Source of the DNA: Ditylenchus dipsaci
Taxonomy: Eukaryota > Nematoda > Chromadorea > Rhabditida > Anguinidae
Assembly: GCA_004194705.1 (NCBI GenBank)
Contig: SADC01000032.1
Span: 310,001 to 374,000 of the forward strand
DNA: 64,000 bases
Direction: 5' to 3'
The translations under genes and the position numbers were made by a program. Positions within the stretch are counted from its first letter, which is position 1. The number at the start of each line of letters is the position of its first letter. Shown here one piece after another: positions 17,111 through 48,600 of this stretch. The notes beneath the pieces are model-generated. The model did not search any database. It saw only the letters and a list, made by a program, of their open reading frames with translations, and was not told where the DNA came from.

Positions 17111-17509
17111 AAAGAAGAGTTCAAATTCACCTACACGCGAACGTTTTATTGGTCAGCTAATACTTTGTTAGCGGAACTAAAGTATTTTCACTATCAATCT
17201 CACAGATCGATGATTTTTCAGCCCATAGAAGTTTGCGAACTCGTCAATTGAAAATAGTCTTCACTCTAAAATGCTATTCAAAAATATGAGACGGGGATCG
17301 TTAAAGAAAAATAATAATTACTGATTGTATTTCCCGACTGCAATCAAACCTCGATAGCGTTACCTAGGTTTTATCCGGTTTCTAGGTGTTCAGGTTGCAG
17401 TTTCGAATAACCCCCCCCCCCCACGGGGACTGATCAGATCGAGGAGATAACATCATATTCGTGTTTCTCGACCCCGATTAAATGAGAAAGCCGGCTGTTT
17501 TTTAAATTC
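17111..17509. other. Unassigned spacer with a half pogo-type end
   Basis: A lone CTGCAATCAAACCTCGATAG terminus lies at 17339. Nothing else recognised. Confidence 0.35.
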
Positions 17510-18165
17510 TGAGAAAAAAAAATTTTTTCGAACCACAGGGGGGGGTATCATGGTTTTTTAGTCAAAATTTGAAAAATTTGAATTGGCGCCTTTTGAATTT
17601 TAAAGGGATAAAGGGCTGTATTGGGAGGGGAAGGGAATAAAAGGGGCCACTTTTATGGCAGAACATTATAAATTTGAATATCTGTATTCTTCGACTGCCT
17701 CACCATGTTTTTCAACTGGACCGTGGCAAAAAGATACTCTATATGCATTTTATGGTCAAGAGTACTTCTCAGAATCATGTCTAAGGTAAGTGAGTGCGCG
17801 CATCTCTAACTCTCAAGCCCCCTGCACCCCTTTGGGGGCGCAAAGGGGTTGGGGCTTGAAGTTGAGATGCGCACACCCACATACCTTAGACACAAATCAC
17901 TCGAAAGTGACTCTGGATGCATGAAAAAGCATGCATACCGGAGTTTATTTATGCGGTAGGCCCCAGCATTCAAAACTATGTTTAACATCTTCTTGTTAGT
18001 GGCCCCTGTGTGATTAGTGGCCCCCTTTTATTCCCTTCCCCTCCCTATACAGCCCTCAATCCCTTTAAAATTCAAAAGGCGCCAATTCAAATTTTTCAAA
18101 TTTTGACTAAAAAACCATGATACCCCCCCCCCCCTGTGGTTCGAAAAAAAATTTTTTTCTCAGAA
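17510..18165. mobile_element. Foldback element with palindromic core
   Basis: Arms 17510-17655 and 18005-18165 are near-perfect inverted copies (CCATGATACCCCC end; AAAAGGCGCCAATTCAAA). The recurring core lies between them at 17739-17985. Confidence 0.8.
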
Positions 18166-18969
18166 TTTATTTCATACATCATAAACATTATCTGTCTTTG
18201 AAAAATCGACCCTACCAGAGTAAAAACCTCTCTGCCGCCCAAAATTTTTCATAACTTTTAATTTTTCGGGAATTTCGAAAGCATGGTCATATATAACCTT
18301 ATATTCAAAATGTAGCTATGCTTTCTAGCGTCAGTTTAAGGATGAACTTGTAAAAGGGAATAAAATGGGGCCACTTTTATGGCAAAACGACAAAACAGTG
18401 AAAAGTGGCGGTGCCACAAAGACTTCCAAAATTAACGATTATGTCTTTTAAAAATATATTTTGGTGCTTTTTCGTCCTGTCAATCGAATATTTGTTCGAA
18501 TATTTAAACTTATAACATTTTTTAGCTTTATTTTTCAAAGCTGGTTTCTTGGAAATATACATTGCCTTAGCTATTTTAGCATATATGTTAAGAGAACATC
18601 TTAAAAAATTATTCTGGTGTTTACTAGGTCTTTTAAAATTTCATTTAAACTTTAGTCATTTAAATTTTAGGCACTTGTTTTGTGACAAACTGGTAGTTTT
18701 GAAAATGTGGTGAGCTATGCTGTTTCTAAAAAAGTGGGCTAAACTTCACTTTACCGGAAATCCAAAACACGGTTTAAAGCGCTTCAAAGCGACCTTTATG
18801 CCTTAAAACGGTTAGGAAACACTTTTTTGAGTGTGGGATGGCTTTTTCTCAGAAAAAATTGTTTGGTTTGCCTTGGTCCTCTCTGTGGTTCTTGGTCATT
18901 TTTGCCTCGGTCTCCTTATGGTTTTTTGGTCATTTTTTGACTTGGTCACTTCTGCTGAACCTAAAAATG

Positions 18970-19220
18970 TATTTGAACATAGTTTTGCTAACTGGGGCCT
19001 AAAACATAAATAATAGAATTGGATGCATGCATTTTCATGCATCCAGAGTCACTTTCGAGTGATTTGTGTATACGGTATGTGGGTGTGCGCATTTCAACTC
19101 CAAGCCCCCAAGCTCCCTGCGCCCCCGAAGCGGGCGCAGGGGGCTTGGTTGGTTGGAGATGCGCGCACTCACTTACCTTAGACATAATTCCGGGCAAGAC
19201 TCTTGATCATAAAATGCATA
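18970..19220 (+). repeat. Palindromic foldback core in left arm
   Basis: Near-complete core: GGGGCCTAAAACAT side, GATGCATGCATTTTCATGCA, TATGTGGGTGTGCGCA, then GCCCCCGAAGCGGGCGCAGG centre, then GCGCGCACTCACTTACC and CGGGCAAGACTCTTGATCA. Mirror copy at 28052-28302. Confidence 0.8.
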
Positions 19221-19309
19221 TAATACGCCTTGAAATAAACTATTTGAGTTTTGTCTGACTTAGGGGGGGGGGGTAGGCACTATTTTGCGGTGTTTCAAAA
19301 TGAGTAGCC

Positions 19310-20340
19310 CCAAGAACACCGAAATCTGTAGCGTACGCACTACAGATTTAGAGCAGTTAGGGAAGTACTCAGGATCCGCACCGCCAACAGTGATTTCAGG
19401 GGTTACTACGAATTTGAGCCCTTTTGATTTGAGCCCCCGCATTTGAGCCCCCGTATTTGAGCCCCGCATTTGAGCCCCGCATTTGAGCCCCATTTAATTT
19501 TTTGGGTGGGCTTATTAGTCCTCGCCCTTCAGGTTCTGATCGAGGTGATCAAAAGTTCCTAGAGTTTCACGCTTTTTTCAGGATCTGATTTTTAACAGAA
19601 CGACAGAACAAATCTAGTGGTACATATGCAAGCAATTTATTGATAACATTCAACAGTTTAAATGAAACACTAGAACAAACAACAGATTCAATAAGTGTCA
19701 ATTTCATTCTCTTCAGATTCTTCTCCTTCTACCTGCCTGCCTTCGGCAGGCAACCTAATTCAATAGGAAGCCCCTTTGTGGGTACATGGTCCGGGAAAAG
19801 GGCTGACCCTTTGGGGCACATGGTCCGGGATAAGGGCTAACTCATTATATACGAGCTCTATATTAGCATCCATCAGATTGCTAATTTTTATATTTAAAGT
19901 AAATATCGATTTTCAAAGAAAAAACACAGAAAAATGAATAAATACAAAATCGGACTTAAAAAAATGAACAGATACAGGCAGTGAAATGACCCGGCGGTGA
20001 AATGTCCGTGTCCCGATTCAAATGTCGGCTTTTGCTATGGGGCTCATATGCGGGGCTCGAATGCGGGAGCTCAAATGCGGGGCTCAAATACGGGGGCTCA
20101 AATGCGGGGCTCAAATACGAGGGGCTCAAAAGCGGGGGCTCAAATCCAAAGGGCTCAAATGCGTGTTAACGATTTCAAACGTTTTTCCCGATATGAACAA
20201 TTTTTCAGTGAGCGTGCAACAAATCTCGAGTGAATCTACAAAATCATGATTTTGCAGCGTGCACACTGCAGATTTTTGGGATTTGCTCTAATCGCCTGAA
20301 TACGTATTGCCGACGGCACATATTTCGAGTAATTTCGAAA
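19310..20340. mobile_element. Element with TTTGAGCCCCGCA terminal arrays
   Basis: Array of TTTGAGCCCC(C)GCA at 19410-19492 and an inverted array of GGGGCTCAAATGCG at 20035-20165. Outer ends show diverged CTGTAGCGTACGC / GCGTGCACACTGCAG inverted repeats. No transposase. Part of the duplicated arm. The short segment 19842-19985 recurs at 37015-37088 and 38826-38893. Confidence 0.6.
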
Positions 20341-20404
20341 CTAGTCTGGATTTGCACCCTTGACAAAGCAAATTTAGAGTACTTTTCCAAAACTCGTGTT
20401 TTTG

Positions 20405-20590
20405 AAGCGTAACTGCAAATTCTGAGTCAGGATCTGCAGCGTCACTGCAAATCCTGACTCAGGATTTGTAGCGATCTGTTGCAGTGACGCTACAGATTCT
20501 GAGTCAGGATTTGCAGTGACGCTACAAACCCTGACTCTGGATCTGTAGCGTCACTGCAAATCCTGACTCAGGATTTGTAGCAACGCTGTT
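20405..20590. repeat. Tandem palindromes AATCCTGACTCAGGATT
   Basis: Six to seven copies of AATCCTGACTCAGGATTTG spaced by TAGCGTCACTGC, in alternating orientation. Mirror copy at 26690-26870. Confidence 0.75.
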
Positions 20591-20607
20591 ATTGGCAGTG
20601 TTTATAG

Positions 20608-21010
20608 TCGAGTTGACCCCTCAACTTTTTAGGGGTCAACTTTTCACAAAAGTGCTAAAATATTAATTTTTTGATGAGAAAGTGCCAAATCTGATATTTA
20701 TGACCCTCACTCAACTTTTTGAGCTCTACAAGATGGCTTTAACAAAAATTTGACATCTTGTCTCTACAAAATTTTGACAAAAGTTGACCCTAAGTTGACC
20801 CCAGTTGACCCCTCAACTTTTTTTACCCACTGATTTTTCTGCGTCAAATTTTTATAAATCACTCGGAAAAACTGCCTATATTTTCGTGTAGAGCTCAAAA
20901 AGTTGCCCTAGGGTCATAAACATCAAAATAAAGAAATACAACGATAAATATTGACATTTTTCGAATTTAAGAAAAAGTTGACCCTAAAAGTTGACCCCGA
21001 CTATAAACAG
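20608..21010. mobile_element. Foldback with AGTTGACCCC ends
   Basis: Starts TATAGTCGAGTTGACCCC and ends TTGACCCCGACTATA; several internal AAGTTGACCCC and GGGGTCAACTT copies. Mirror copy at 26265-26670. Confidence 0.7.
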
Positions 21011-21044
21011 GGCCATTGCAATAAGCTAGCGTTATTGCAATTTA

Positions 21045-21125
21045 AATAAAAATAGGCTGCACCCCATGGGGTCGAACCACGGTCGACTACAGCTCTCTTC
21101 CACTGGGCCAACTGGGTCGTTACAC
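21045..21125 (-). tRNA. tRNA-derived sequence, not a functional tRNA
   Basis: On the minus strand an A box (TGGCCCAGTGG) and a B box (GGTTCGACCCC) lie 21 nt apart, shorter than in a true tRNA, and no full acceptor stem pairs. Best read as a tRNA pseudogene or SINE head. Mirror copy at 26148-26227. Confidence 0.5.
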
Positions 21126-21496
21126 CTCGTTAATTCTCAATCTTATACCCAAAATTTAGTTAATTCGATGAAAAAAAATTAAGTGGCCCTCCTGGGTCAG
21201 GAGGACATTCTGGAAGGAGTCGCGTTGGATTCTCATGTAATCTCTACATATTTTTCATTACGTTTCGGCCACTTAGATCCAATGTTTTAATTCTGTGAAA
21301 ACCCTTGTTAGAGGGTCACCGAAAACTTCATTTCGGCTCTTTTACTGAGCTACCTGACCTATTTAACCTCAATGAAGTTTTTCAATACTCGGACAATAAA
21401 TGTCTCCGAATAGGTACTGGGGCAGAACATGGGACATTGAGGAGCTGGGCTAGGAGACATCACTGATCACGCAAAAATACAATAAAAGGCGGATAA
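21126..21496. other. 3' flank of the micro-exon gene
   Basis: Duplicated in the right arm (25790-26150). Includes a copied block with GAGGGTCACCGAAAACTTC and CATTTATTGTCCGAG-like mirror. No gene. Confidence 0.4.
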
Positions 21497-21502
21497 TTTA
21501 TT
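21497..21502 (-). terminator. Poly(A) signal of micro-exon gene
   Basis: AATAAA on the minus strand, 20 nt downstream of the stop codon. Confidence 0.55.
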
Positions 21503-21521
21503 CTAAACGAATTGAAAAACA

Positions 21522-24118
21522 TTAAACAAAACATGGAAACTGCTGGATTCTTCTGTTGAGTTCATAGCACTGTCTTGTAGACCAGCATCCAGAAACTCTC
21601 TTGATCTTCTGCCTAAATTTTCGATCATTAAGCGACACCAAAGGAAATGTAGAGAAATGCCTACTTATCCTCAGATCGTCTGCAGCACTAGTTACGCCAG
21701 CCAAAGCAACTGCCAGAATCGCCTTATTGAGCTGGAAGGCCAGTGCACCATTGTCCTTCTTACACTTCCTACACGCATTTAGAAGCTACAAACTTAGTGA
21801 GCTCACCGAAAGCGATCCCGCCTGTAAAATAGAGAAAATGGCGTGAAGACTACTTATGACTAAACAGTTACCTGCTAGGTTATCGATTAGGCGAAGAATC
21901 AAGCTGCTACCGAGCTGTTCAGACATCCGATTACAACCTGCATAAAGTGTGTAAAATAGAGCAGGTAGAAACAAAATGGTGAAAAAGAAAGGGTCACTAA
22001 CAGTGTTGTTACAGCGCCGGGATCGGCGCCGGCGCCAGCGCCGGCGCCGACCCTTGCCGAAAAAAGACCCCAGCGCCAGCGCCGAGCGCCTCCCTTGAAA
22101 AATTTGGCTCCGGCGCCAGGGCCGACCTCTTTTGAAAAAATGCCCCAGCGCCGGCGCTCATGGCAGCGCCGGCGCCGGCTTGATAATTTTGTTTTTGCTG
22201 TGAATTTCATGAAAAATTCCTATTTTTTTAAGAGTATGTTTTTACAGTGAGAATGATAATAATTATTTGTTATCATATCGATTAGCAGCATACCGTTTAT
22301 ATTTCCTCTATTAATTCCTCATGGTGAGTGAATGTTGAAAAACAGGGTGTTTTAAAAAATTCGAAGAATTTAAGATGGCTATACCTTTTTATCTAGAACG
22401 AGTTTCTGTTTCACCAATCCTTTTCTTTTAAGTGTACAATGTCAAAAGTATGATTTTTGCTTGGTCCATCTGTTGTTCCGGATTTTAGCCATCTAGGGCC
22501 ACCGACAGACCAGGACCAGAACCACAGAGGGACGAAGCGAAATTTTCGACATTATACACTAAATGAATTGCCGTCAAAAGAAAACGATTGGCAAAAACAG
22601 AAATTAGAAACTCGGTCCAGAAAACAAGTTATAGCCATTTCAAATTCTGCGGATTTCTTGAAGCACCCTGTATTTTCCCTATGCTGAGAAATAAGTCCAT
22701 ATGAGGTGCATTTATTAGAGAGTGGGAGTTCATGAAAAGAATGAGGTAATCCATATTAGTTTTGTGAAAAAAAAAGTTGTGTAAATTACTGTTTCAAGAA
22801 TAGCATATGATACCCTGGTTAAGTAAAAAATTAATAATAAACTAAAAATCAAAGAAAATAAATAAAATAAATAAAAGATTTTAAGAAATGAAAGAAATTG
22901 CAGCACAAAAATTCAGATAATTTACTTTAAAATTAAGAATAATTGATTCTCAATATTAGCCTGTTAAATTTTAAAACAGCGCTGGCGCTGTAGCCGTTCA
23001 AAAAACAGCGCCGGGGCCAGCGCCGGCGCCGACCAGAATTTTTCATTGCCCCAGCGCCGGCGCCGAGCGCCGACCCGGCGCTGTTTTTTCCCGGGGCAGC
23101 GCCGGCGCCGGCGATAGCGCCGGCGCCGGAACAACACTGGTCACTAACTATGTTATGCATAGGCGTCAACTACTGCATTTTTTGCTTGAAGGAGACTGCA
23201 GACTTGTCCTACTTGCAGAAAGGTAGCGTCGGTAGAGAACTGATCCACCTACATAGAAAAGCTTTCGAATTAGTAGAAGTGGAAAAACTGGTTTGAACGA
23301 GTTCATTACCTGCTACATCCTTAGCTGCCTCATCATTAAATCCTACTGCGAATAGATCTGTAAAGTAAGAGAAGTAAGAAGAAAGATGTCGAATGACACG
23401 ATTACCTGCTGCGATAATACCTGAACATTCCTGCTTCAGCTACTGCAAATAGATCTGTAAAGTAAGAGAAGTAGGAGGAAATGAGTCGAATATCACGATT
23501 ACCTGCTAGGCTACGGACAACAAGTAGACTACGCGTGACTGAAGCTCACATTTGACGGTACTTCATGCATCACAAGTAGAGAAAAGCTAGCAGTGTAAAG
23601 GGATCCATCCACGTGCTCTGTAAAAAGCAAAAATAGAGAATAAAAGCTATTCAAATAACAAGTTCACCTGCTAGGCTACCGACAACGAGTTAACTGCCTG
23701 ACATCTGACTGTCCTTGATGCAACTATATTTGTTCTCTGTGAAATAGAGCAATTGAAAAAAACTAGTCCAAATAAATTAGTTACCTGTTACGCCATGAAT
23801 AATGAGCAGACTGAGGTTTTGTTCAGTGCACTTATTTCAACTACGACGAATATGTCTATAATTCAGAAAAAGTAGAGATTAATAACTCTAAAAGAACTTC
23901 TAACCTGCTACGTTATGAATCAGGAGTTAACGTGCGCTTGCAATCTGAGTAACCTGCCATCTGAGAACGCATGATTTATTAAAATGGAATCGCCCTGTGG
24001 ATAAAGTAAATAGAGAGAGTGAAGAAAATTAACTCCGAGAAAATGATTACCTGCTACTTCATTGATAAGCTGGCAACTGAGCTTGCTTGATCTACCTACA
24101 TCGCAAGGCTTCTTAAAA
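21522..24118 (-). CDS. Unrecognised gene of tandem short exons
   Basis: Ten exons read on the minus strand: 24118-24051, 23994-23905, 23855-23785, 23736-23668, 23617-23503, 23454-23406, 23357-23310, 23248-about 23166, 21937-21872, 21821-21522. Except for the donor of the eighth, every boundary is AG|...|GT, donors mostly GCAG|GTAA. Introns are 48-61 bp; the eighth would be about 81 bp without the hAT insert. Several exons are multiples of 3 (90, 69, 48, 66) and phase 1; others (68, 71, 115, 49) miss by one or two bases. Readable pieces: LSCQLINEVA, DLFAVGFNDEAAKDVAG, SEQLGSSLILRLIDNLA, and the last exon LAFQLNKAILAVALAGVTSA ending QQFPCFV. Exons 6 and 7 are duplicates (DLFAVAEAG / DLFAVGFND). 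In-frame stops occur in exons 2, 4 and 5, so it may be degenerate, mis-assembled or alternatively spliced. No 5' end, signal peptide or family is recognised. Its organisation recalls micro-exon genes of parasitic flatworms; that is analogy, not homology. Confidence 0.55.
22001..23139. mobile_element. hAT-type element with GC-rich terminal arrays
   Basis: Ends CAGTGTTGTTACAGCGCC / GGCGCCGGAACAACACTG with the 8-bp direct repeat GTCACTAA at 21993-22000 and 23140-23147. About 180 bp at each end are arrays of GGCGCCGGCGCC; the interior (22200-22970) is AT-rich without transposase. It interrupts the intron between exons 8 and 9 of the micro-exon gene and is missing from the inverted copy. Confidence 0.85.
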
Positions 24119-24827
24119 CTGAGCAGGTGAACAAGATACAAATAGTACTTCAAGAATTAAAGAAAATGGTTAGTCGAACGTCGTCAAATAAAAAGCAGTC
24201 AACTGTTCGAACGACAATCTGTTACCATAAATAGTCAAGTAGTCGATTTTCGATAAAAAAGAATGCACAATACGATTACTTGCGACTACTTTTCTCGCTA
24301 AAATTGGACTGAAAAAACCTGTCATGGAAATAAGTCAAAAGCTCAGTCGTCGTTACTAGTCGTGTAGCAGTCTTGAAGTCGAAGGACTAGCTGTCACAGT
24401 AATTCAACAAGCAGTTAACTTGTAAGTGAAAATCCTTTCCCAGCACGACTACTTCATGAGGACATTTTCATAACTCACCACCCTATCTGGAGGCTTGGCC
24501 ATGCCGTGAACTTTTTATAATAGTCAGGGTAGTATATTTGACGATTACTTCAGCTATCAGCCTCAGCTGTATAAGTTCTAAAAATGTCCTGATGAAGTAG
24601 TAGTGCTTAGCGATGCTTTTTAACTAAAATTGGACTGTTTGTTTTTTCACGGTGGCAGATAGTCGTTCGATTATAAGACTGCTCCACGACTAGTAATACC
24701 GACAACCGAGCTTTGGACTAACTCTCATGACAAGTTTTTTCAAACAAGGCAACGAATATTCGCAAAAAAAGTAGTCACAAATAAACGTAGTGTGCAATTG
24801 CGAGCAGGTCATCAGTTTCTTCGCACT
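24119..24827. repeat. GACTAGTCG-rich spacer with degenerate inverted repeat
   Basis: Dispersed TAGTCG and CGACTA motifs. AGCACGACTACTTCATGAGG (24442) pairs imperfectly with ATGTCCTGATGAAGTAGTAG (24585). This would be the shared upstream region of the two divergent gene copies; no promoter motif is identifiable. Confidence 0.4.
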
Positions 24828-25071
24828 TACCGTATAACCTCTATTAAACGGGCACCCCTACAGTTAACGTTTTTCATATTTGCTTTTCTTTTTTAACCCC
24901 AATATTGTTTAATTTCGAAACAGACGACCACTCATTTTGTAGAGATTCACAAACTCTACAAAATAAGTGGTCGTCCGTTTCGGAAAATAAACAATATTGG
25001 AGTTAAAAAAGCAAAGCAAATATGAAAAACGTTAACTGTAGAGGTGCCCGTTTAATAGAGGTTATACGGTA
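24828..25071. mobile_element. 244-bp TA-type MITE at palindrome centre
   Basis: TACCGTATAACCTCTATTAA at left and its complement ending TATACGGTA at right; arms of more than 100 bp nearly perfect. The same TACCGTAT outer motif is seen at 51841, 55492 and 59144. Confidence 0.8.
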
Positions 25072-25097
25072 TTTGTCTCTCCTTTCTCTTAATTACA

Positions 25098-25740
25098 GAC
25101 ACATTCGACGTATGTGGATTAATTACACCAGATGGTATCCGCGGTCTGAATATTGTGATATGCTTGGACTATTGTTTTCTAAGTGCTTCATTTCACAGAA
25201 GTACCTAATGTAGTTGTGTTAAGCACCGTCAGATGTAGGCTTCTTTAAAAAGCTCAATTTTAAGATGCCTTGCGATGTAGGTAGATCAAGCAAGCTCAGT
25301 TGCCAGCTTATCAATGAAGTAGCAGGTAATCATTTCTCGGAGTTAATTTTCTTCACTCTCTCTATTTACTTTATCCACAGGGCAATTCCATTTTAATAAA
25401 TCATGCATTCTCGGATGGCAGGTTATTCAGATTGCAAGCGCCCGTTAACTCCTGAGTTATAACGTAGCAGTTAGAAGTTCTTTGGAGTAATTAGTCTATG
25501 CTTTCTCTGATTTACAGAGATATTCGTCGTAGGTCAAATAAGTGCCCTTTCCATTGCTAGCTTTTCTCTAATTGTGATGTATAAAGCACTGTCAAATGTG
25601 AGCTTCAGTCAGGCGTAGTCTACTCGTTGTCGGTAGCCTAGCAGGTGAACTTGTTGTTTGAATAGCTTTTATTCTCTATTTTTGCCTTTGCCCTTTCCAC
25701 TGCTAGCTTTTCTCTACTTTTGATATATGAAGTCTAGCAG
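25098..25740 (+). pseudogene. Inverted, truncated copy of the short-exon gene
   Basis: Plus-strand counterpart of the left gene. Exon-like units follow splice acceptors at about 25098 (TTAATTACAG), 25199, 25257, 25379 and 25515. 25268-25467 repeats left exons 1-2 almost unchanged, but exon 2 lost one G of its donor. The next unit joins an exon-5-like body to an exon-4-like end. After 25721 the sequence jumps into the left gene's last exon (25740 = 21540), so the equivalents of 21541-about 23555 are gone. Judged non-functional; the first unit is open for about 34 codons (DTFDVCGLITPDG). Confidence 0.5.
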
Positions 25741-26147
25741 TTTCCATGTTTTGTTTAATGTTTTTCAATTCGTTTAGAATAAATTATCCGCCTTTTATTG
25801 TATTTTTGCGTGATCAGTGATGTCTCCTAGCCCAGCTCCTCAATGTCCCCATGTTCTGCCCCAGTACCTATTCGGAGACATTTATTGTCCCGAGTATTGA
25901 AAAACTTCATTGAGGTTAAATAGGTCAGGTAGCTCAGTAAAAGAGCCGAAATGAAGTTTTCGGTGACCCTCTAACAAGGGTTTCACAGAATTAAAACATT
26001 GGATCTAAGTGGCCGAAACGTAATGAAAAATATGTAGAGATTACATGAGAATCCAACGCGACTCCTTCCAGAATGTCCTCCTGACCCAGGAGGGCCACTT
26101 AATTTTTTTCATCGAATTAACTAAATTTTGGGTATAAGATTGAGAAT

Positions 26148-26227
26148 TAACGAGGTGTAACGACCCAGTTGGCCCAGTGGAAGAGAGCTGTAGTCGACCG
26201 TGGTTCGACCCCATGGGGTGCAGCCTA
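26148..26227 (+). tRNA. tRNA-derived sequence (mirror copy)
   Basis: GTTGGCCCAGTGG (A box) and GTGGTTCGACCCC (B box), as in 21045-21125. Spacing too short for a working tRNA. Confidence 0.5.
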
Positions 26228-28051
26228 TTTTTATTTAAATTGCAATAACGCTAGCTTATTGCAATGGCCCTGTTTATAGTCGGGGTCAACTTTTAGGGTC
26301 AACTTTTTCTTAAATTCGAAAAATGTCAATATTTATCGTTGTATTTCTTTATTTTGATGTTATGACCCTAGGGCAACTTTTTGAGCTCTACACGAAAATA
26401 TAGGCAGTTTTTCCGAGTGATTTATAAAAATTTGACGCAGAAAAATCAGTGGGTAAAAAAAGTTGAGGGGTCAACTGGGGTCAACTTAGGGTCAACTTTT
26501 GTCAAAATTTTGTAGAGACAAGATGTCAAATTTTGTTAAAGCCATCTGTAGAGCTCAAAAAGTTGAGTGAGGGTCATAAATATCAGATTTGGCACTTTCT
26601 CATCAAAAAATTAATATTTTAGCACTTTTGTGAAAAGTTGACCCCTAAAAAGTTGAGGGGTCAACTCGACTATAACACTGCCATAACAGCGTTGCTACAA
26701 ATCCTGAGTCAGGATTTGCAGTGACGCTACAGATCCAGAGTCAGGGTTTGTAGCGTCACTGCAAATCCTGACTCAGAATCTGTAGCGTCACTGCAACAGA
26801 TCGCTACAAATCCTGAGTCAGGATTTGCAGTGACGCTGCAGATCCTGACTCAGAATTTGCAGTTACGCTTCAAAAACACGAGTTTTGGAAAAGTACTCTA
26901 AATTTGCTTTGTCAAGGGTGCAAATCCAGACTAGTTTCGAAATTACTCGAAATATGTGCCGTCGGCAATACGTATTCAGGCGATTAGAGCAAATCCCAAA
27001 AATCTGCAGTGTGCACGCTGCAAAATCATGATTTGTAGATTCACTCGAGATTGTTGCACGCTCACTGAAAATTGTTCATATCGGGAAAAACGTTTGAAAT
27101 CGTTAACACGCATTTGAGCCCTTTGGATTTGAGCCCCGCTTTTGAGCCCCTCGTATTTGAGCCCCGCATTTGAGCCCCCCGTATTTGAGCCCCCGCATTT
27201 GAGCTCCCGCATTCGAGCCCCGCATATGAGCCCCATAGCAAAAGCCGACATTTGAATCGGGACACGGACATTTCACCGCCGGGTCATTTCACTGCCTGTA
27301 TCTGTTCATTTTTTTAAGTCCGATTTGTATTTATTCATTTTTCTGTGTTTTTCTTTGAAAATCGATATTTACTTTAAATATAAAAATTTAGCAATCTGAT
27401 GGATGCTAATATAGAGCTCGTATATAATGAGTTAGCCCTTATCCCGGACCATGTGCCCCCAAAGGGTCAGCCCTTTTCCCGGACCATGTACCCACAAAGG
27501 GCTTCCTATTGAATTAGGTTGCCTGCCGAAGGCAGGCAGGTAGAAGGAGAAGAATCTGAAGAGAATGAAATTGACACTTATTGAATCTGTTGTTTGTTCT
27601 AGTGTTTCATTTAAACTGTTGAATGTTATCAATAAATTGCTTGCATATGTACCACTAGATTTGTTCTGTCGTTCTGTTAAAAATCAGATCCTGAAAAAAG
27701 CGTGAAACTCTAGGAACTTTTGATCACCTCGATCAGAACCTGAAGGGCGAGGGACTAATAAGCCCACCCAAAAAATTAAATGGGGCTCAAATGCGGGGCT
27801 CAAATGCGGGGGCTCAAATACGGGGGCTCAAATGCGGGGCTCAAATCAAAAGGGCTCAAATTCGTAGTAACCCCTGAAATCACTGTTGGCGGTGCGGATC
27901 CTGAGTACTTCCCTAACTGCTCTAAATCTGTAGTGCGTACGCTACAGATTTCGGTGTTCTTGGGGCTACTCATTTTGAAACACCGCAAAATAGTGCCTAC
28001 CCCCCCCCCTAAAGTCAGACAAAACTCAAATAGTTTATTTCAAGGCGTATT

Positions 28052-28302
28052 ATATGCATTTTATGATCAAGAGTCTTGCCCGGAATTATGTCTAAGGTAA
28101 GTGAGTGCGCGCATCTCCAACCAACCAAGCTCCTGCGCCGCTTCGGGGCGCAGGGAGCTTGGGGGCTTGGAGTTGAAATGCGCACACCCACATACCGTAT
28201 ACACAAATCACTCGAAAGTGACTCTGGATGCATGAAAATGCATGCATCCAATTCTATTATTTATGTTTTAGGCCCCAGTTAGCAAAACTATGTTCAAATA
28301 CA
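28052..28302 (-). repeat. Palindromic foldback core in right arm
   Basis: Mirror of 18970-19220: GGTAAGTGAGTGCGCGCATC, the GC-rich centre, then GCGCACACCCACATACCG and CTGGATGCATGAAAATGCAT. Confidence 0.8.
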
Positions 28303-28959
28303 TTTTTAGGTTCAGCAGAGGTGACCAAGTCAAAAAATGACCAAAAACCATAAGGAGACCGAGGCAAAAATGACCAAGAACCACAGAGAGGACCAAGGCA
28401 AACCAAACAATTTTTTCTGAGAAAAAGCCATCCCACACTCAAAAAAGTGTTTCCTAACCGTTTTAAGGCATAAAGGTCGCTTTGAAGCGCTTTAAACCGT
28501 GTTTTTGGATTTCCGGTAAAGTGAAGTTTAGCCCACTTTTTTTAGAAACAGCATAGCTCACCACATTTTTCAAAACTACCAGTTTGTCACAAAACAAGTG
28601 CCTAAAATTTAAATGACTAAAGTTTAAATGAAATTTTAAAAGACCTAGTAAACACCAGAATAATTTTTTAAGATGTTCTCTTAACATATATGCTAAAATA
28701 GCTAAGGCAATGTATATTTCCAAGAAACCAGCTTTGAAAAATAAAGCTAAAAAATGTTATAAGTTTAAATATTCGAACAAATATTCGATTGACAGGACGA
28801 AAAAGCACCAAAATATATTTTTAAAAGACATAATCGTTAATTTTGGAAGTCTTTGTGGCACCGCCACTTTTCGACTTTTATTCGACGCCAAATTTATCGC
28901 TGAGCAATGTGTTCTCAGGTGTCGTCTCGATTTATGCTAAAAATTTTGAGTTATGACAT

Positions 28960-29050
28960 TTTATAGTGAAGTAATTTTCTTCAACCACTAAAATAGACAT
29001 CCTTTGGCTAAAGTACGGTATAAGAACTCCTCCCGAAAACCGGTTTTTAC
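28960..29050. other. Spacer
   Basis: Short unassigned sequence between the palindrome border repeat and the next foldback. Confidence 0.3.
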
Positions 29051-29059
29051 CACTTTTTT

Positions 29060-29640
29060 TGTGTGTTTTAGCATCTTTAACGTACAGAAAACATGTTTTT
29101 AGATGGCGGAAAACCATTTCCAGAAAAAAATATTTTTTTGAAAATTTTGACTTTTTGCCTTGGGGTCCAAGGTAAGCCATCCTAAAAGGGTATCCAGATA
29201 CCTTAAAAAAAGTGTTCGAACAAAGTTCTGTTAACTGGGGCCTACCGCATAAAGAAACTCTGGTATGCATACATTTTTCATGCATCCAGAGTCACTTTTG
29301 AGTGATTTATGTCTCAAGTATGCGTGTGTGCGCATCTCAACCCCAAGCAACCAAGCCCCCTGCGCCCCCTAAGGGGTCGCAGGGAGCTTGGTTAGTTAGA
29401 GATGCGCCCAAAGACTTACCATAGACATAAATCCGAGCAAGACTCTTGATCATACATGTATAAAAGACTATTTTTGTCCAGCTCCAGTGACCAAAACGGG
29501 GTAGAATACCTTAATACACGGTGATTTACCTTGGTCCCCCAAGGCAAAAAGTCAAAATTTTCAAAAAATATTTTTTTTCGGAAATGGTCTTCCGCCACCT
29601 AAAAAAATGTTTTCTGTAACTTAAAGATGCTAAAACACAC
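29060..29640. mobile_element. Foldback element with palindromic core
   Basis: Arms 29060-29180 and 29530-29640 (TTTTGACTTTTTGCCTTGG vs CCAAGGCAAAAAGTCAAAAT; GATGGCGGAAAACCATTTCC). Core copy at 29217-29465 in between. Confidence 0.75.
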
Positions 29641-30673
29641 GAGAAAGGGGTTTAAACTGGTTTTTCTGTTTTATCTTGTTTTTTTAATGTTGTTTATTTT
29701 GCAGTTGTCTTATTCTACAAATATTTTATTGTAGTGGGTATTACATTGAATTAAGAGAGATTGGATCAAAAACACAATAAACAATAGTAGTTACCTTTGG
29801 CTTACACAATTTGGCAATTCACTGTCCATAAACAAATAAGATGAAAATCGAATTTTAGGGAGATCAAACATTTTCTTAAAATACTTCTAAACATTTTGTA
29901 TGGCCATAGTTGAAAGGAAAAGAAAGGAAATAGGCAAGATTATTTTAGTAAAATCGAATTAGTGGGAAAAGTCAATATCAGCAGGAAATTCGGTGACTAG
30001 ATTATTATAATAATAAAAACAAAGGATAGGTCAATATTTGCTATCTGAAAACTTTTTTGGGTCTTTTTTTAAATTCGTAATTACAGTCATAATTCTTAAT
30101 GGCGTTATTAATCGCTGAGTCCGATGCTATTTTTAGCCCAATTTATCAAGTCTTTTGTCAATTTTGATTCCTCTATCGAGTATAAAAAGATGCAAAAAAT
30201 TTTTTATCTTGTCGGTCGATTTTTCAGAAGAAGAGTTTCATATTTTTAATTTCTGCAAAAAATTGATGAAAAATACCTAATTTAATTAAATTTTAACCAA
30301 GAAAAAAGTTTTTCGCATAGTCAATAAAAATTAGTGCGGGCTCCGAACTCATTACATTTTAGGGTATTTTATCAAAAAATTCTTATAGAATATTCACAAT
30401 GGTACTTATTACTCTCTTAGTGCTGAAAATAAATAAATAAAATAAGATTTGGGGTCCTAAAATAGGGCACCAAAATAAGTAACGTATTTTTCTAACATAT
30501 AGGCGGTGTCTGATAGATGGGCCGGGTCTGGGTTAAAAACTAAGGGCATGACCGTCAAGTAGATAAAACACTGTAAATGTTATAAATAAGCACGTTTCGG
30601 AGCCCTGTAATAGTGCCAAAAAAAGTAGTGGTTTCAAGTAAAGTCATAGTAATCTATGGGTGTTAGTAGTGAA
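29641..30673. other. 3' flank of zinc-finger gene
   Basis: AT-rich, without repeats or ORFs I can assign. It presumably includes the zinc-finger gene's 3' UTR at its right end. Confidence 0.35.
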
Positions 30674-33600
30674 CTAGTTGCCTTCGGAGAGTAGGGATAG
30701 CACACTTCTCAGACCTTCACTGGTTTCGTCCCTAAATCTGGTGACCTGTTGATTGATGCCTGTTTGCAGCTGGACCAGGGTATAGATCGAGTTTAGTGCC
30801 ATCTCCAATTGCTTCTCCAGTCTGCCTACTCGACCATCCAGATTGCTGACCATCTGAAATATCAACTATTATATTGTCATGGGCCACAACTACTCACTTG
30901 TTCCACCCTGGAGTTGAGAGTGTTAACCTTCAGCTCGCCCATCATCACCCTCATTTGATGCAGTTCACTGGCTGTGGCTGTCATAGCTGCTGCAGCTCCA
31001 GGTAGATGAGCCAGATCCCCTCCATTGCTACTCGAATGAATATGATTTTTGTTATTGGGGTTGAGGTTGTCCTGACTAGAACTGGCTGACTTTGGAGGAG
31101 CTATATTGTGCATAGCTGCCAAGTGGGCAATAAGGTCTCGAGCTAAAAAAATAGGTGTATAGATGACCATTATTAACGTTGACAATTATACAGTTATCTA
31201 TTAGATTGGTGCATAATTATTTACGGTTTTTTAAAACTAATGTTTAAGAATCAAAATTATTTCAAAAAACTCTTCTTGATACACCATTGTGTAGCTCTGT
31301 TATTCCTCTTAAAAATGTGTTATCATTATTTGTTGGATTATTAAAAAAAGTCGGCGTTTGGCTCTAAATACTAGTGATGACATCATGGGTAGTTGACTCG
31401 TATTTTCGTCACTTCAACTGGTCAAACGTTTTATTCAGGATTTAACATTTTCACAACCCCTCAATGCTGTCTTGTATCGCAGTTCAAGAGCTACAATACC
31501 TATTTTACAGTATCATTTTGAAGATCTGGTTGTGGAGATATACACTTTTGATCAATTTCTTTAAAAAATTACCAAAATTCAAGTTTTTAGGACTTTTGGT
31601 CATTTTTTTTTAATTGATTTTTTTTAAAAGTGTATATATCGACAACCAGATTTTCAAAAAGTATTCTGTAAAATATCAATTGTAGCTCTTGAATTGCGCT
31701 ACAACACGGTTAAAGAGGTTGTTAAAACGCTGAATCCTGAATGAAAAGTTTGACAAGTTGAAGGGATGAAAATACGTGTCAACTACCCATGATGTCATCA
31801 CTATAGTTTAGACCCAAACGCCGACTTTTTAAAATAACCCGAAAAAAAAATATACCACATTTTGAAGAGGAATAACAGAGCTAAACAACGGTGTATCAAG
31901 AACAATTTTCGAAATAATTTTTATTCTTAAACATTAGTTTTAAAAAACCGTAAATAATTATGCACCAACCTAATATTATACCGTTGAATTTTTTAAAGTT
32001 GAACATTATACAGTTAGCTAAAAACCACCACGAAAATTTTTCTGACCTTTTCTGAGCTGTTTGCCGCACTCTGGGCACTTGGACGAGTTCATCTTTCCGC
32101 CTGGAGCACCATTAGAGGGGGGAAGTGTGTAGCTCAAAGATCCACCACTCCCAGACTCAACGCCATCCCCACTACTATTGCCAATGGTCTTCCTGACTAT
32201 AAAATTGGTGGGAGTGGTCTGGGCTATGGTGGCTGGACTGCTACCCAACTGTTTAGATTCAGCTTTAGTACTGTTGTTCCCGAAGAGTAGAGCCTTACAA
32301 GCAGCTGCAGCTAGAGCTGCAGATCCAGCAGACAATTGGGTGTTGTTGGGTGTGGAGTTGCTGACGGCATTCAACTGATCGGCCAAATGGCTGAGTGTAT
32401 TAGGAGACAATTGACCCCCTGTGGTTATGTAATCAGACAGGTGGTTGTTATTTTCTCCATCGTCTGTGTGTTCACCAATCTCCATCTTTAGGGCAGCGGA
32501 ATTGCATTTCTGCAACAATTGGTCGGTGAGGTTGTGATGGTTCAGAGACTGTGGTTGCTGTTGGTGTCCTGAAATATAGAAATTTATGATAAATCGGAGT
32601 ATTGTTTGAAGTTTATAATTCAACGGATTTAAGCTCCCTCAACTACAAAAGGTGAAACTCGTCGGGATCATGGCGACGTACGACCGGCTATTTGTGCAAC
32701 ACTATTGCTCCACCAAACCAAACAAATGAATGTGGCCGGCCATAGGGCCGATTACAAAATGGCCGTTTTCGAAGCCTAGATAAAACAAACTAAATATTGA
32801 TTCTAGCACAAAATTATCCACACAAGAAAATTATGTTTTCCATTAGCTTCCACCAGACTCCACCGAAACACGTCTACCGAAACAATCAGAAATTGATTTA
32901 GTTTAGGAATATTTAATTTATTTTTCTGAAAAATTTTATTCGCAAAAGAATTGTCAGATGTTTGTGCTCATTTTGGTAGCACAGTCAAACCTCTATATTT
33001 CATCGCGCAAGGACCGGCCCTGCCCGGATGCAATATAGAGTGTTGATAATAGGTAATTTATTTTCCGGCCAACCAAACCAAAACAAAAGCGGATGCAACA
33101 TAGAAGTGGATGCAATATATAGGGTTGCTTTATGCAGGGTGTCCAATAAAAACTGCAGCATTTTTGAAAATTTTGTCAAGGACTTCCGCGGACCAGTGAA
33201 ATCCCGAAAAATTTTTGAGATTTCAGCCGACAATTGAAATAAGTTTTAGCTAAAAATACTAAAAAAAAACAATTAACTAACAGAAAGAATATATTATTGA
33301 CTCTTATTAATATTGACTCGACCATTTTTTAATGAAAAGAGTGGTCCAAAATTAAAAGGAATGCAAAAAGGCGGGAATTAAAAATGCTGCATTTTTTATT
33401 GGATAAATCTTTTTTCTGCCCGCATCTGGCTTTTTTCTGCCCGCTTTTAGCTTTTTCTGCCCGCTTTTTCGAAAATGATTTAACATAACCCAATCTGTGA
33501 TAACTTTTTAATTCTGTGCAGCTTTAGTACGAAATTTTCTAAGGAATTCGAATTTATTTACAGAATTTCGAAAAAATTATTGGCTGCTGAGATGTGACCA

Positions 33601-36600
33601 TTTGTTGCATCTAAGAGATTTTTATGCCCAAATTCTGCAAAATGGCCAAAGCTGGACAGGTAACAGCTTTTTTGAAATTCTGTAAATAAATTCGAATTCC
33701 TTAGGAAATTTCGTATACAAGGCTGCTCAAAATAAGGAAAGTTATCACAAATCGGGATCATTTTCAATCATTTCAAAAAAGCGGGCAGAAAAAAGCTAAA
33801 CGCGGGCAGAAAAAAGCCAGAAGCGGGCAGAAAAAAGTCTCGTCCATTTTTATTGGACACCCTGTAGAGGTTTGACTCACATTAACACCTTCAAATTCGA
33901 ACTCGAAGTATGTAAACACCTTCGAGTTTGAGTTCGGATCAAAGGTGTTCACGTAGCCAAAAATCCGAACATGAACTCAAGCTCGAAGTACGTAAAGAAG
34001 CCATCAAGTTTTTGAAATATTATTGTCTCGAAGATTTTACATTGAGTTCGAAAAATTGAGCCTAGATGGTTCCATTAGTTTCGCTTATGGCTCATTTATG
34101 AACTTTGTCGTTGTTGTTGGTGTAAATCGCCTTCACAAAACATTTTTTTTCAACGACAATGACGACGACAACGTTTATAAATTAGCCATAATAGAAAGAA
34201 TTAGAATCATCGTTTATTTTCGCTCTTCGCTCGCTGTCTATATATTATCGACTAAAATTCTTGTTTGTTCAGAAGAATGACAGCTTTCATCCGCAAGATC
34301 TTTGGCTTCAACAAGTCTTCCTCCAATCATTTGCAAACGCCGAAAAGTGTGACAGAAAAGAAGTTGGACCATCGTGGCGATCAATCGCTTGACTATGGTT
34401 GGTTGTCTTACTACTGCTGGGTCAAAGTGTTCATCAACTCACTTTAGAGAAGAACAATTCATTGTACCTCAGCTTTGATTCAGAGGGCTCATCTAATGCA
34501 GTTTCCGCCGCGAAGCAAGACGATGTCAGCTCTTCCGTCTATTCGATCAATGTGAAAATCAGTAACAAGGGAATTCTGTTTATGCCAGCCGCTTCGCCTC
34601 TACAGTCAGTTGCTTCAAATGCGGCGATCGACACGCCAAAGAAAAATAATGAACAGCCGCAGCTTGGATTCGGGCTCGATACTCTGTCGATGTCAACGCC
34701 TCTTCGTGCTCCTGTGACGCCTGTCAAGCCAAGCTTTGATGTCGCTCTGCCATTTGGGAAGCAAGTGAAATTCATCGACAAGAACATCAGCAAGTATGAG
34801 CAGAGAATGGCCAAGACGATGCGAATTATCAAGCGCCTGATGTCTGGCAAGAACCCTACAGCGGATGACCTTTTCTGTTAGTGCTTTTTGAATATATTTA
34901 CATGCTTAACCACCTGCTTTTCAGCCATTGAAAACGAAGACTCTGAGGATGAGGAAGATGATGTGCTGGATATCTCGATGCGCTCCACCTCTCAAATGCC
35001 GACGGAAAAGGACATGGATGACTTGTGCCAGCGATCCAGCCAGCTTCTGACCTCATGGGAAATGCTTCACAATTGCTTGCTGGAAGGAATCGGCATGGAT
35101 GCTATTCGCCCGAAAGATCAATCAGAGAAGTCTTTTGTGATGGGCAAGAACCGACACAACCAGTCAGAGACCGAATAAATTGATTGTGGATTGACCGAAA
35201 ATTGTGACTTTGATTGTTGTGTACTCGAATCATTACTGGTAATAAAGAACTAGTTTGGCTGAAATAGGTTTTAGGGGTTTCAAATAGCTCTTCCTACGGT
35301 GTGAATTTGACTGTCAGAAATTTTTTAAAGTGTTTCCTTGGGCGGCAGGGCAATTGACCCCCTGGACAATTGACCACCAGGGCCGATTGAGCACCCGGGC
35401 CGTTTGACCCCCTGGCTTTTTGACTACGAAAGCTGCTAGCATTTTGTAATTTCATGAAATCATGAATGAAATGAGGCAAATAAAAAGAATTGAACAGCAA
35501 ACACGTTTTTATTCTGGTTAATAGAACAACAAAACAGCAAAGAGAGAGTATAACAGTTAATGGAGTATTCGCCCATCATGAAGCATCCTAGCAATGCCAC
35601 CAAGGTATTCGACAACTGACCTATTCTCGTATGATAGCGTATGTGGTTGAAATACTAGCCTGTTCTCATCTTCAGAGTCACCTAGAAAGAAGTTTCCGCC
35701 ATCGTATCTTTTAAAGCCATCTGGAATTCCGAAGTTTACATCACCTGGAATTGATGGACCATCGGTCTGTCTCATACGAGTTCTCTGAACAGCTTTTGTG
35801 GAAGCACTTTTTGCAATTTTGGATTGAACTGCTCTCGCTGATGGAAGAATATCATTGAATATTTGGGCAGGATTCTATATATAATTTCAATTTATAGACA
35901 ACCATAAAAAGTCTCTTATCAAAATTTTACTTCCATAGTAGTAGCGGCCTTTTTTTTAGATACTGTTTAAATAATGCTACTGGCAGGGCTGTTGCCATGC
36001 GTAAGTTTTGCCTTTTCCCATTCGGAAGTTACCTGAATTACAGGGTGGCGCGAAAAACGAGGCCGCTTTGAAAAAATTTGCGTAGGTAGCTCCTTGTCAA
36101 ACCGATTTCCCCAGGAAATCGATGACAGTGGTTAAGCTACCTAGGAGCTTTGTGGTGTTTCTCTTAATCATAGCCGGCCGTTATTGTGGAGGTTTCCAAG
36201 GACTTGCCACCCGAAAATCGGAAACCGACCGGGCAAGGGTTACATACTTCAATTTTTTTAAGGTGGCCGAATTTTTTGCGCCACCCTGTAGTCAAAAATA
36301 AAGTAGCCTGAAAAATATACAAAAAATGGATCAAATTGAAAACTCCCGACAAATGTGTCAAATTTCCCGACTAATTAATTAATTTTCCCGGCAAATTCGA
36401 ATTTGCCTAAAAGTAATGAATTTTCCCGACAAATCTGTGAAATTTCCCTACAAATCTGTGAAAGTTCCGGCAAATACTTTAATTATAATGTTTAATTGGT
36501 TGTGTAACGGCTGCCTTGTTTCTTGTTTCAAAAAAATTACTTGAAATGACTTAGGTAATACTTTAGAGATGCAATTACAAGCTAAGCGACAAAAGAAGCG

Positions 36601-45600: not shown

Positions 45601-48600
45601 GCGATCTCGAACAAACTTGTGCAAAATTAAAAGTAAAAGTAACATCATCAATATCAGAATTTCTAAATTCCTTTAAAATAACGCCCTAAAAATCAAAATG
45701 GAAAAGGGAAAAAACCATCGAAAAAAGGTGATTAGTCTTCGATTGCATTTGGATTTTTAGGGCATTTTTTTGAAGAAATTTAGAAATTCTGATATTGATG
45801 ATGCTGATCCAACTTTTAATTCTGTACAAGTTTGTCTGAGATTGCAACGTCGAGTTGTCGACAAAATATGACTCAAAAACCACATTCAAAAACACAAAAC
45901 TTGGAATGACTATCTCCTTAACAGCTTTCACCCCTCCTTTAAATGTCGTGTCCTTAAATTTAAATGTCAATTAACGAAAAATAGGCCGCTAATATTACGT
46001 CCACAAAAGTCGATCTTCAAAAACCGTTCCCTAGATGTTCAGTTAAGAATGTCACGTCCTCGAATTCGGACCGCAATATTCGGGTTACAAATGTCACATC
46101 CTCATATTTCTATTCTTTAATGCCAGTCTTCACTTGTCGGACTGCAAATATCGGTCTGCAATAGACCATTTTAATTTGTCTCTTCTTTAATGTTGTATCC
46201 TTAGTAGTCCGTCTTTATATGTCTGGCTTTTAATATCAGTCCTCAATTATCGGCTTTCGAAAAATTCAATCCTCGAGAATTATTCCTTAAATTTTAAGGC
46301 ACACATGTCACCAAGCCACTATAAGAATTAGAAAAATGAAAATACTTTCTTGAGTTTTATGTTTTGAATTTTTTCCGTTTTCATAGGCAGTCCCCAGGGG
46401 GGACCAAGGCAAATTTTTTAAAGTTTTTTTTTCACAATCACAACTTGAAAATATGAAACCGGATTTGTGTTCAGCATGGCCCGTTTGCATGTGAAACTGC
46501 TCTAAAAATTCGAAACTCAGTGTCAAATTTTAAAATCCTCTCAAGACAAAATGGTGCTCTTTTCGCTAAATCAAATGGTTTCCGTCTTGAGAGGAATTTA
46601 AAATTTGACACTGAGTTGCAAATTTTTAGAGCAGTTTCACATGCAAACTGACCAAATGGAACACGAATCCGGTGTCAGATTTTCAAGTTGTGATAGTAAA
46701 TTTTTTGAAAAAATTTGCCTTGACTTCCCAACATCAGAGGCCCAGATACCCCGAGCTGCATCCGATATTTATATTTTTTGGTGAATTTTCACAGCCATCT
46801 TGTAGAGCTGCTCAAGCCGAGTAAAACGAGCCTAAACACGCAGGTGAGCATATACAAAGCAGACCGCTCCTGTCCATTTTAAGAAAAGAGGTCATTTTTT
46901 GTGGTTGAAAAAAACTACTTAACTATAAAAAGCCATAACTCAAAATTTTCAGCATAAATCGGTGTTGGCATCTGAGAACATATTGCTCGGCATTAAAATT
47001 TGGAGTCGTTTGATATGTGACATGCACGGTGGAAAAAATCGAAAAAAACACGGTGCCACGAAAACCTGTAAAATTAATTAATTTAATTAAAATTTTTATA
47101 AAAAACATAATTCCACAAATATTTTTTTTGAAAAACAGGAACTTTTTACAGGAACTAATATATAATGACAAAATAAGATTTATTCTTAGACCCTATGTGG
47201 TTTGGAAATTTATCTATCTGAGGTCGGGTAAGGGTCAAAGCATAGTGAGACCAAGTGAAAAACTATGAATATATATACTAAAAAAATTTAAGGCTCAACG
47301 AAAGTCGATATGTGAAATCGTGATTTCAAAATTCTGTCAGGGAAAATGCTATCGGCGCTTAAATACAAGCGAATTTCTTGCGCAGACTGTATTTTGGGTC
47401 GGATTCGAAACTCGATGATTTTTCAGAACATTGGTGGAACTAAGAAATGGTTAAAAAAAGAGAAGTAGAACAGGGAGATCAGTTACTGCTAGCAGCTAAC
47501 AGTTCTTCTCATCTGATAAACTAGAAGGTTTCAAACCCAATAAAGTGGGGGAGGGGGGGGGATAGGTAACAAGCAGCAGCACAACTACTGCTACAAAACA
47601 GGAAAGACACAACCACCACCAACAGACAGTTCTTTGTTAATCGCCGAGAGAGATGGATCCCGAATTGATAGAGGGGATTGCTGAAATTGGGTTAACAACT
47701 CAATTGATTCTCTATTGATTAGGGGTGACTGCTGCTACTGCACCAAAGCTAAAGGCTTAATTCTAATTTCAAAAATACAATATGGCTGCGAAAAGTTGAG
47801 AAGATACAAAAAGTGGGACTGTTTTACAGTCAGATTTCGATGTCAGATTTCGAGCCACATCAAGTTCGTTCCCGCCTAGGGTCCTACACTTTCTTAACCC
47901 AATTTACGAAGTCTTTTCTAGTCTTTTTTTAACAAGCTAGTCACAGTTATTGCACGGGTTCTGACTTTGCCGGTCGTTTTTGAATAGATAAAAAAGTTTG
48001 CCATTAACTGGTGGACAAAAAGTCCTTGGACAAATTTTGAGCTCACTTTTTGAAATAAAAATTTAACGATGAGAAAATTCCTAAAAATAGGTTTTGTAGC
48101 CCTGAATCTCCTCTTTCAAATGGCATATTGCTTTAGCTTGACTATTTTGGATAAGTCACTATTTGCTCCAAACACTTGTCTGGTCATTTCGAGAAGGTTA
48201 CCAACGTTTTCATCACTTTAGCTGGTCAAATGTTTTATTGAATTTTAAGTGTCACTGCAGAATTTTATCACCATGTTGTAGCGCAGCTCAAGAGCTACAA
48301 AACCCATATTACAGAGTGATTTTTGAATATCTGATGGTTGAGATATGTTTTTGGAATAAATCAATTTCTTGAAAAAATGACCAAAATGAAAGTTTTTGCC
48401 AATTTCTCGGATTTTGGTCATTTTTTCAAGAAATTGATTTATTCCAAAAGGACATATCTCAACCATCAGATATTCAAAAATCACTCTGTATATGGGTTTT
48501 GTAGCTCTTGAGCTGCGCTACAACATGGTGATAGAATTTTGTCGTGATGCTCAAAAATTTAATAAAACATTTGACCAGTTAAAGTGATGAAAACGTTGGT

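Follow-up and report, generated by a model that had tools for sequence, protein, structure and literature searches.

Foldback elements such as FB of Drosophila have long inverted arms and internal repeats that vary in length. Tetris and Galileo, which are Foldback elements as well, are reported to combine long inverted arms with internal repeats of varying length. In the Mutator superfamily, insertion leaves target duplications of 8-11 bp. Closer to the species studied here, Tm1 is a Mutator/Foldback family of root-knot nematodes which, in the part of its description used here, has composite terminal repeats, internal arrays of tandem repeats in variable number, MITE-like members and target duplications that are mostly 9 bp long (PMC3169594). 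The same part describes a spliced transcript, Cg-1, inside one element and a second element nested in one copy (PMC3169594). For Ditylenchus dipsaci itself, a survey of plant-parasitic nematode transposons gives a repeat content of 55.7%, and its main text, to the extent covered here, contains no word starting with Tm1, foldback or MITE (PMC11118728). Among the papers judged by title or by the start of the abstract, none dealt with micro-exon cargo in Foldback elements or with the Ditylenchus element described below.

We analysed a 64,000-nt stretch of the D. dipsaci contig SADC01000032.1, hereafter called the window, to which all positions refer unless another contig or locus is named. The exon string at the centre of this work lies on its minus strand.

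Results

A string of micro-exon-like blocks on the minus strand

From 24118 down to about 21520, the minus strand carries short blocks bordered by acceptor and donor signals. A preliminary description had listed ten consecutive segments here. All ten are present at these coordinates, but they are not consecutive, as a 1.14-kb hAT-like MITE lies between blocks 8 and 9. The intron lengths given there agree with the sequence (56, 49, 48, 50, 48, 48 and 61 bp between blocks 1 and 8, and 50 bp between the last two blocks). Micro-exon 1 (24051..24118) is open. Micro-exon 2 (23905..23994) contains an in-frame stop, and micro-exon 3 (23785..23855) is frameshifted in the window copy. The string further comprises micro-exons 4 (23668..23736), 5 (23503..23617), 7 (23310..23357) and 9 (21872..21937); micro-exon 6 (23406..23454) shows a 23-bp gap against four relatives, and the 3' end of micro-exon 8 (23151..23248) is uncertain (around 23151). 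The last exon (21520..21821, with a 3' limit at about 21520) is followed, as had been noticed before, by an AATAAA read from the sequence at 21502-21497. Further upstream, a minus-strand block at 24732..24800 matches residues 13-35 of a predicted D. dipsaci protein by tblastn (61% identity, E 3e-4), and the exon structure may thus start before micro-exon 1.

The departure of this layout from chance was measured with a simple splice-signal rule, in which an AGGT donor and a pyrimidine-rich YAG acceptor delimit introns of 45-65 bp and exons of 35-130 bp. In the stretch 24160-23150, which was picked after the exon string had already been noticed, the minus strand gave a chain of seven introns. 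Over 1000 dinucleotide shuffles of the same stretch, the chain was 0 in 275, 1 in 623, 2 in 96 and 3 in 6, and never exceeded 3, while the plus strand gave a chain of 1. When 1-kb windows were slid along both strands, a chain of at least 4 was found in 4 out of 504 (the best being 6), and all four overlapped the exon string. The exon/intron string is therefore real, its chain being far above chance.

Exons 6 and 7 had been described as a 97-bp tandem duplication. Their spacing is indeed 97 bp, but only 61 of the 97 ungapped positions are identical, mainly in the intron and the first exon bases. The reading frame of the final exon, which had been called clear, fared less well. It differs from the phase-1 frame of the other exons, and among 20 aligned copies, that of the window has a last exon with a divergent 5' end and one mid-exon base where all 19 others are gapped. 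Since the long frame depends on this base, it is private to the window copy, and we rejected it as coding evidence.

A hAT-like MITE interrupts the string

The insert that splits the string (22001..23139) has the ends CAGTGTTGTT and AACAACACTG, short terminal repeats of the CAGTG.. type, and is flanked on both sides by TTAGTGAC, an 8-bp target duplication. At four related loci (L021-L024), the sequence runs straight through the empty site. Duplication length, terminal repeats and empty sites are all those of a hAT MITE, which we take the insert to be from its end sequence and the length of its duplication. It is a high-copy repeat and explains most of the 89 genome matches obtained with the full-length query.

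The string sits in a palindromic element

Missed by the preliminary description, the string is carried by a palindromic, Foldback-like element at 19218..28055 and is thus a transposon-borne sequence cut by a second transposon. Both ends of the element start with ATATAATACGCCTTGAAA, and they were placed by comparison with the loci L065, L067, L021 and L022 and with an end pattern. By self-BLAST, a left arm at 18400..21547 (plus strand) and a right arm at 25733..28872 (minus strand) form a 3.15-kb inverted repeat of 98.9% identity that includes 0.8 kb of flank. Long inverted arms around a centre, as in Foldback elements, are thus found in the window. Arms that are 96.6-98.9% alike occur in L065, L068 and C1335, and L021 and L022 have shorter inverted blocks only. 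Since the palindrome extends 818 bp beyond both element ends, the window copy has probably had an arm duplicated, in inverted orientation and with its flank, at a later time. A missed PacBio adapter was considered as the source of the palindrome. Judged on the assembled sequence rather than on reads, such an artefact is unlikely, because the arms are split by a 4.2-kb asymmetric centre and differ by 1.1%.

Tandem repeats of variable number, the second Foldback trait, are also present in the arms. Self-comparison located 32-bp units at 20406..20587 in the left arm and at 26688..26869 in the right arm, and L065-L067 have arrays in a 27-bp register. The length of the array differs among copies and even between the two ends of one copy, L066 having about 1.4 kb on one side versus about 0.13 kb on the other. 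In the opposite arm, part of the exon string is repeated in reverse (25252..25733, plus strand), with blocks of 92%, 90% and 79% identity, and forms a divergent partner.

Other repeats were seen in and around the element. One high-copy repeat, with tandem ends of the GGGGCTCAAATG type, lies at 19427-20171 and is mirrored at 27102-27871, so that it either predates the inverted duplication or was copied along with the arm. MITE-type palindromic repeats, 70-94% self-complementary, are many in the window (48005-48798, 31199-31975, 33409-33837, 17503-18169 and 29036-29664). On the minus strand at 32018-32638, a stop-free stretch of 206 residues with a zinc-finger-like end (CPECGKQL) had no Pfam match at 0.001.

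Relatives are dispersed and share constant ends

The genome searched comprises 226,978,389 bp in 1,359 contigs. Further loci with the same exon type, as the preliminary description had anticipated, were readily found: relatives of the first eight exons lie on 24 contigs and those of the 3' part on 26, the union of both searches being 33 contigs (the window's own contig is counted in the 24 and in the 33). On four contigs (C915, C1004, C1161 and C1271), the similarity is confined to the last ~200 bp and the sequence downstream. Several copies are divergent head-to-head pairs, for example on C41, C573, C1324, C1335 and C1287. L065, L066 and L067, which are about 93-97% alike among the larger blocks listed, terminate at the same sequence, ATATAACACGCCTCGAAA, with different 30-40-bp flanks (the left end of L066 is on C1324). 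Ends of this kind also bound the window copy, at 19218 and 28055. The element-end pattern ATATAA[C/T]ACGCC occurs 310 times in the genome (146 forward and 164 reverse), and the reversed control 0 times. Among the first 100 of these ends, 12 facing pairs are 264-439 bp apart, which is MITE size, and others are separated by 3.7-11.8 kb.

Target duplications were looked for in the six elements with both ends besides that of the window (L021, L022, L048, L065, L067 and C1335), the window's own being unreadable as its flanks are themselves duplicated. L021 has a 9-bp repeat, TTCATTTTT/TTCACTTTT, right at its ends, with 8 of 9 bases identical. C1335 has a 9-bp repeat, TATTTTGAC/TAATTTGAC, also identical at 8 of 9, and 8 AT-rich bases separate it from the end. 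L022, L048 and L065 showed none, and L067 none that was convincing. Credible target duplications are thus present in at most two of the six elements. These two 9-bp repeats hint at Mutator-like elements, without proving it.

No transposase was found between such ends, and hence no transposase-bearing member of the family, in the paired intervals on C21, C32, C33, C41, C223, C300, C573 and C901: none of the 137 listed MULE matches and none of the 137 listed IS1595-type matches, best candidates that had been scored, fell within these intervals, which derive from the first 100 of the 310 ends and were compared by eye. BLAST comparison of an 801-base piece between the C300 ends with the window, L021-L024, L065-L069 and L071 showed no similarity, which suggests that elements sharing these ends can hold different contents. 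Four ORFs of this piece and four exon peptides gave no Pfam match over the cut-off.

The reading frames within L021 were rejected as a transposase of that element itself, since they belong to a nested element (L021:924-3509) with the ends TAGAGCTGC/GCAGCTCTA and TTACCGAC on either side. By eye these frames are hAT-like, and they had no Pfam match over the cut-off. Exons 1-3 of the string also occur as a 0.3-kb piece at L040-L043 (two loci each on C1251 and C305), where they adjoin a small gene-like stretch. The main blocks of these loci are 94.9-99.4% alike in the four pairs compared.

Traces of past coding and of decay

Most open exons both begin and end in phase 1; exon 1 exits in phase 1 and its entry phase is different. 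Each exon unit corresponds to about 20-27 residues with a rough motif, [DEG]-[LPA]-F-x-V-[AG]-G ... L ... LLI..VA. Over the first 15 columns of 24 exon starts, codon position 3 varied most (difference 0.209, permutation p=0.006), the 24 units having been picked by hand and by eye from several subfamilies. In this same set, 7 of the 24 units had stops in the phase-1 frame versus 16 and 9 in the other two frames, which is a small margin over one of them. The periodicity could come in part from homology of the units at the DNA level. Within the window's subfamily it is weak (0.079 at position 3, 0.057 and 0.056 at the other positions). There, ten pairs of copies differed by 0-9.4% in exons and 0-11.2% in introns, exons being slightly below introns in nine pairs and both being 0 in the tenth.

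In the wider family, exons diverge clearly less than introns. Exon 1 gave 0.118, 0.081 and 0.120 for positions 1-3 versus 0.178 for its intron, and exon 3, which shows no periodicity, gave 0.096, 0.113 and 0.109 versus 0.142; the rows compared are distinct sequences rather than independent events, insertions against the query are unscored, and copies outside the length filter were dropped. With exon divergence below intron divergence, some past constraint among the copies may have existed.

Exon stops or frameshifts were found in the copies that were read (the window, L021-L024, L065-L069 and L071), the other loci having been covered by BLAST comparison only. The preliminary description had left the choice between sequencing errors and real decay. 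Decay stands, since several in-frame stops recur across related copies, and for the same reason we rejected sequencing error, at this one locus, as their chief source. Judged from the sequence, the ancestor probably coded for a protein and the copies seen now are probably dead. Rfam and tRNA scans of the window found nothing, Pfam had no match at 0.001 for seven window ORFs, and a PDB search with exon pieces returned no match.

A predicted D. dipsaci protein uses two element exons

The sole public protein found, one among 302 candidates, is an uncharacterized D. dipsaci protein (A0A915EPS5, P0001). No other relative was seen among 5.8 billion proteins at the sensitivity of that search. Its pieces map to C927 at 81-97%, and the predicted model splices exons 1 and 2 in the phase deduced for the window string. 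The mapped pieces are 48 bp apart with a three-residue overlap, so that the intron between exons 1 and 2 would be roughly 48-57 bp. In the C927 copy, seen via the protein model only, exon 2 is open where the window copy has a stop. At its very start, the protein has a weak resemblance to antisense sequence of the element (E 0.07 and 0.2). In the gene model (C927:48493-53360), an unrelated acidic protein that lies several kb downstream is joined to exons 1-2, and this junction is either an exon fusion or an annotation error.

SL1 RNA was also searched for. None of the 50 full-length matches scored was over the Rfam cut-off, and the one match that was read out contains the 22-nt SL1 leader of nematodes. 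SL1-like loci are evenly spaced on C351 (6620-19444, about 1.08 kb) and on C409 (50373-59806, about 1.17 kb), which is suggestive of tandem SL1 arrays.

Discussion

We consider it likely that the window carries a dead copy of a micro-exon gene, borne by a non-autonomous palindromic DNA transposon of the Foldback type, perhaps Mutator-like. The gene-like structure, a row of very short exons made from similar units with short introns, is real, as the preliminary description proposed, yet it is probably fossil transposon cargo in a nematode. The cargo would be a once-coding row of micro-exons, each giving one repeat of about 20-27 residues and separated by introns of about 48-60 bp, present in both arms and reading outward from a shared centre.

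Some of the observations could also be read as a tandem repeat of ~100-120 bp within a transposon that never coded for protein and whose unit borders resemble splice sites by chance. Units 6 and 7 do repeat with their 97-bp period across intron and exon, and homologous positions carry stops in several subfamilies. However, the blocks vary widely in length (48-115 bp) while the introns stay at 48-61 bp, the exon starts show a codon-position pattern, and stops are fewest in the phase-1 frame (7 of 24 units, versus 9 and 16). This reading is therefore unlikely. At the opposite extreme, the exons could belong to a living or recently living nematode micro-exon family that was duplicated as inverted pairs, with transposon ends hitch-hiking. 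Exon 1 is stop-free in all 14 distinct aligned rows (two of them partial, and insertions being unscored), exon 3 has neither stop nor gap in 12 of 14 rows (the window's frameshifted exon 3 having been filtered out), exons of the wider family diverge less than introns, and a D. dipsaci gene model uses exons 1-2. Nevertheless, the remaining exons are broken in the copies read, the ends are constant in differing flanks, and in the sole public protein the exons are fused to an unrelated acidic protein, its first residues having a weak likeness to antisense sequence of the element. A living family is thus quite improbable in our opinion, and the preliminary idea of a living gene for a variable protein does not hold for the copies read, which carry stops or frameshifts. 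The likeness to flatworm genes that had been proposed fails on the host, which is a nematode, as the SL1-type leader and the D. dipsaci protein also indicate. A schistosome-type micro-exon gene for variable secreted proteins would account for the row of very short exons, but with copies that are broken where read and, at the search sensitivity, no protein relative among the 5.8 billion except the one D. dipsaci model, we give this explanation hardly any credence.

If the string is a dead gene copy in a Foldback-type element, its history may be outlined as follows. The gene would have been built through duplication of units while it was coding, a step supported in part by the data above. It would then have joined an element with terminal repeats, inside which it now lies. 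Capture from a host gene is what we infer for this step, since outside the elements no donor gene came to light. The element, whose copies are dispersed in the genome, would have been mobilised in trans by some transposase, possibly a Mutator-like enzyme. Its copies would have decayed through stops, frameshifts, loss of units and nested insertions, such as those seen in the copies read. The window copy further gained its hAT-like MITE and, as its palindromic flanks suggest, would have had one arm duplicated in inverted orientation together with its flank.

Transposon cargo can thus pass for a convincing multi-exon gene and mislead the annotation of the repeat-rich genome of a crop pest; one public protein model already includes two element exons. 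A further idea, which we hold doubtful, is that the transposon serves as a reservoir, scattered through the genome, of ready-spliced micro-exons with compatible frames. As most exons are in phase 1 at their start and end, insertion upstream of a host gene could add peptide repeats to it, and A0A915EPS5 would be one such case. Were element exons indeed spliced into host transcripts, this would be a direct route for Foldback elements to add repeat peptides.

Among known systems, schistosome micro-exon genes, as far as their description was used here (PMC4350168), likewise have rows of very short exons, but the present row is in a different phylum, decayed and transposon-borne. Animal Pack-TIR elements, in the part of the report considered (PMC8277862), likewise carry pieces of host sequence, whereas no donor gene was identified here. 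Foldback elements in general have similar arms and variable repeats; the window element differs in that its cargo is a multi-exon gene array in both arms. Of the Tm1 terminal motifs, A2 (CCTACCC) is present once in each arm of the window element and is too short to carry weight, and a search of this element for A1, C and D gave nothing. Because the terminal motifs differ, we do not file the window element as a Tm1 member. It also differs from Tm1 by its kilobase-long arms with micro-exon arrays. As far as the part of its description used here goes, Tm1 is nevertheless the nearest described system, the two having in common a nematode host, composite ends, variable tandem arrays, MITE-like members, a nested element and either exon-like blocks or a spliced transcript within the element, and the window element may work like Tm1.
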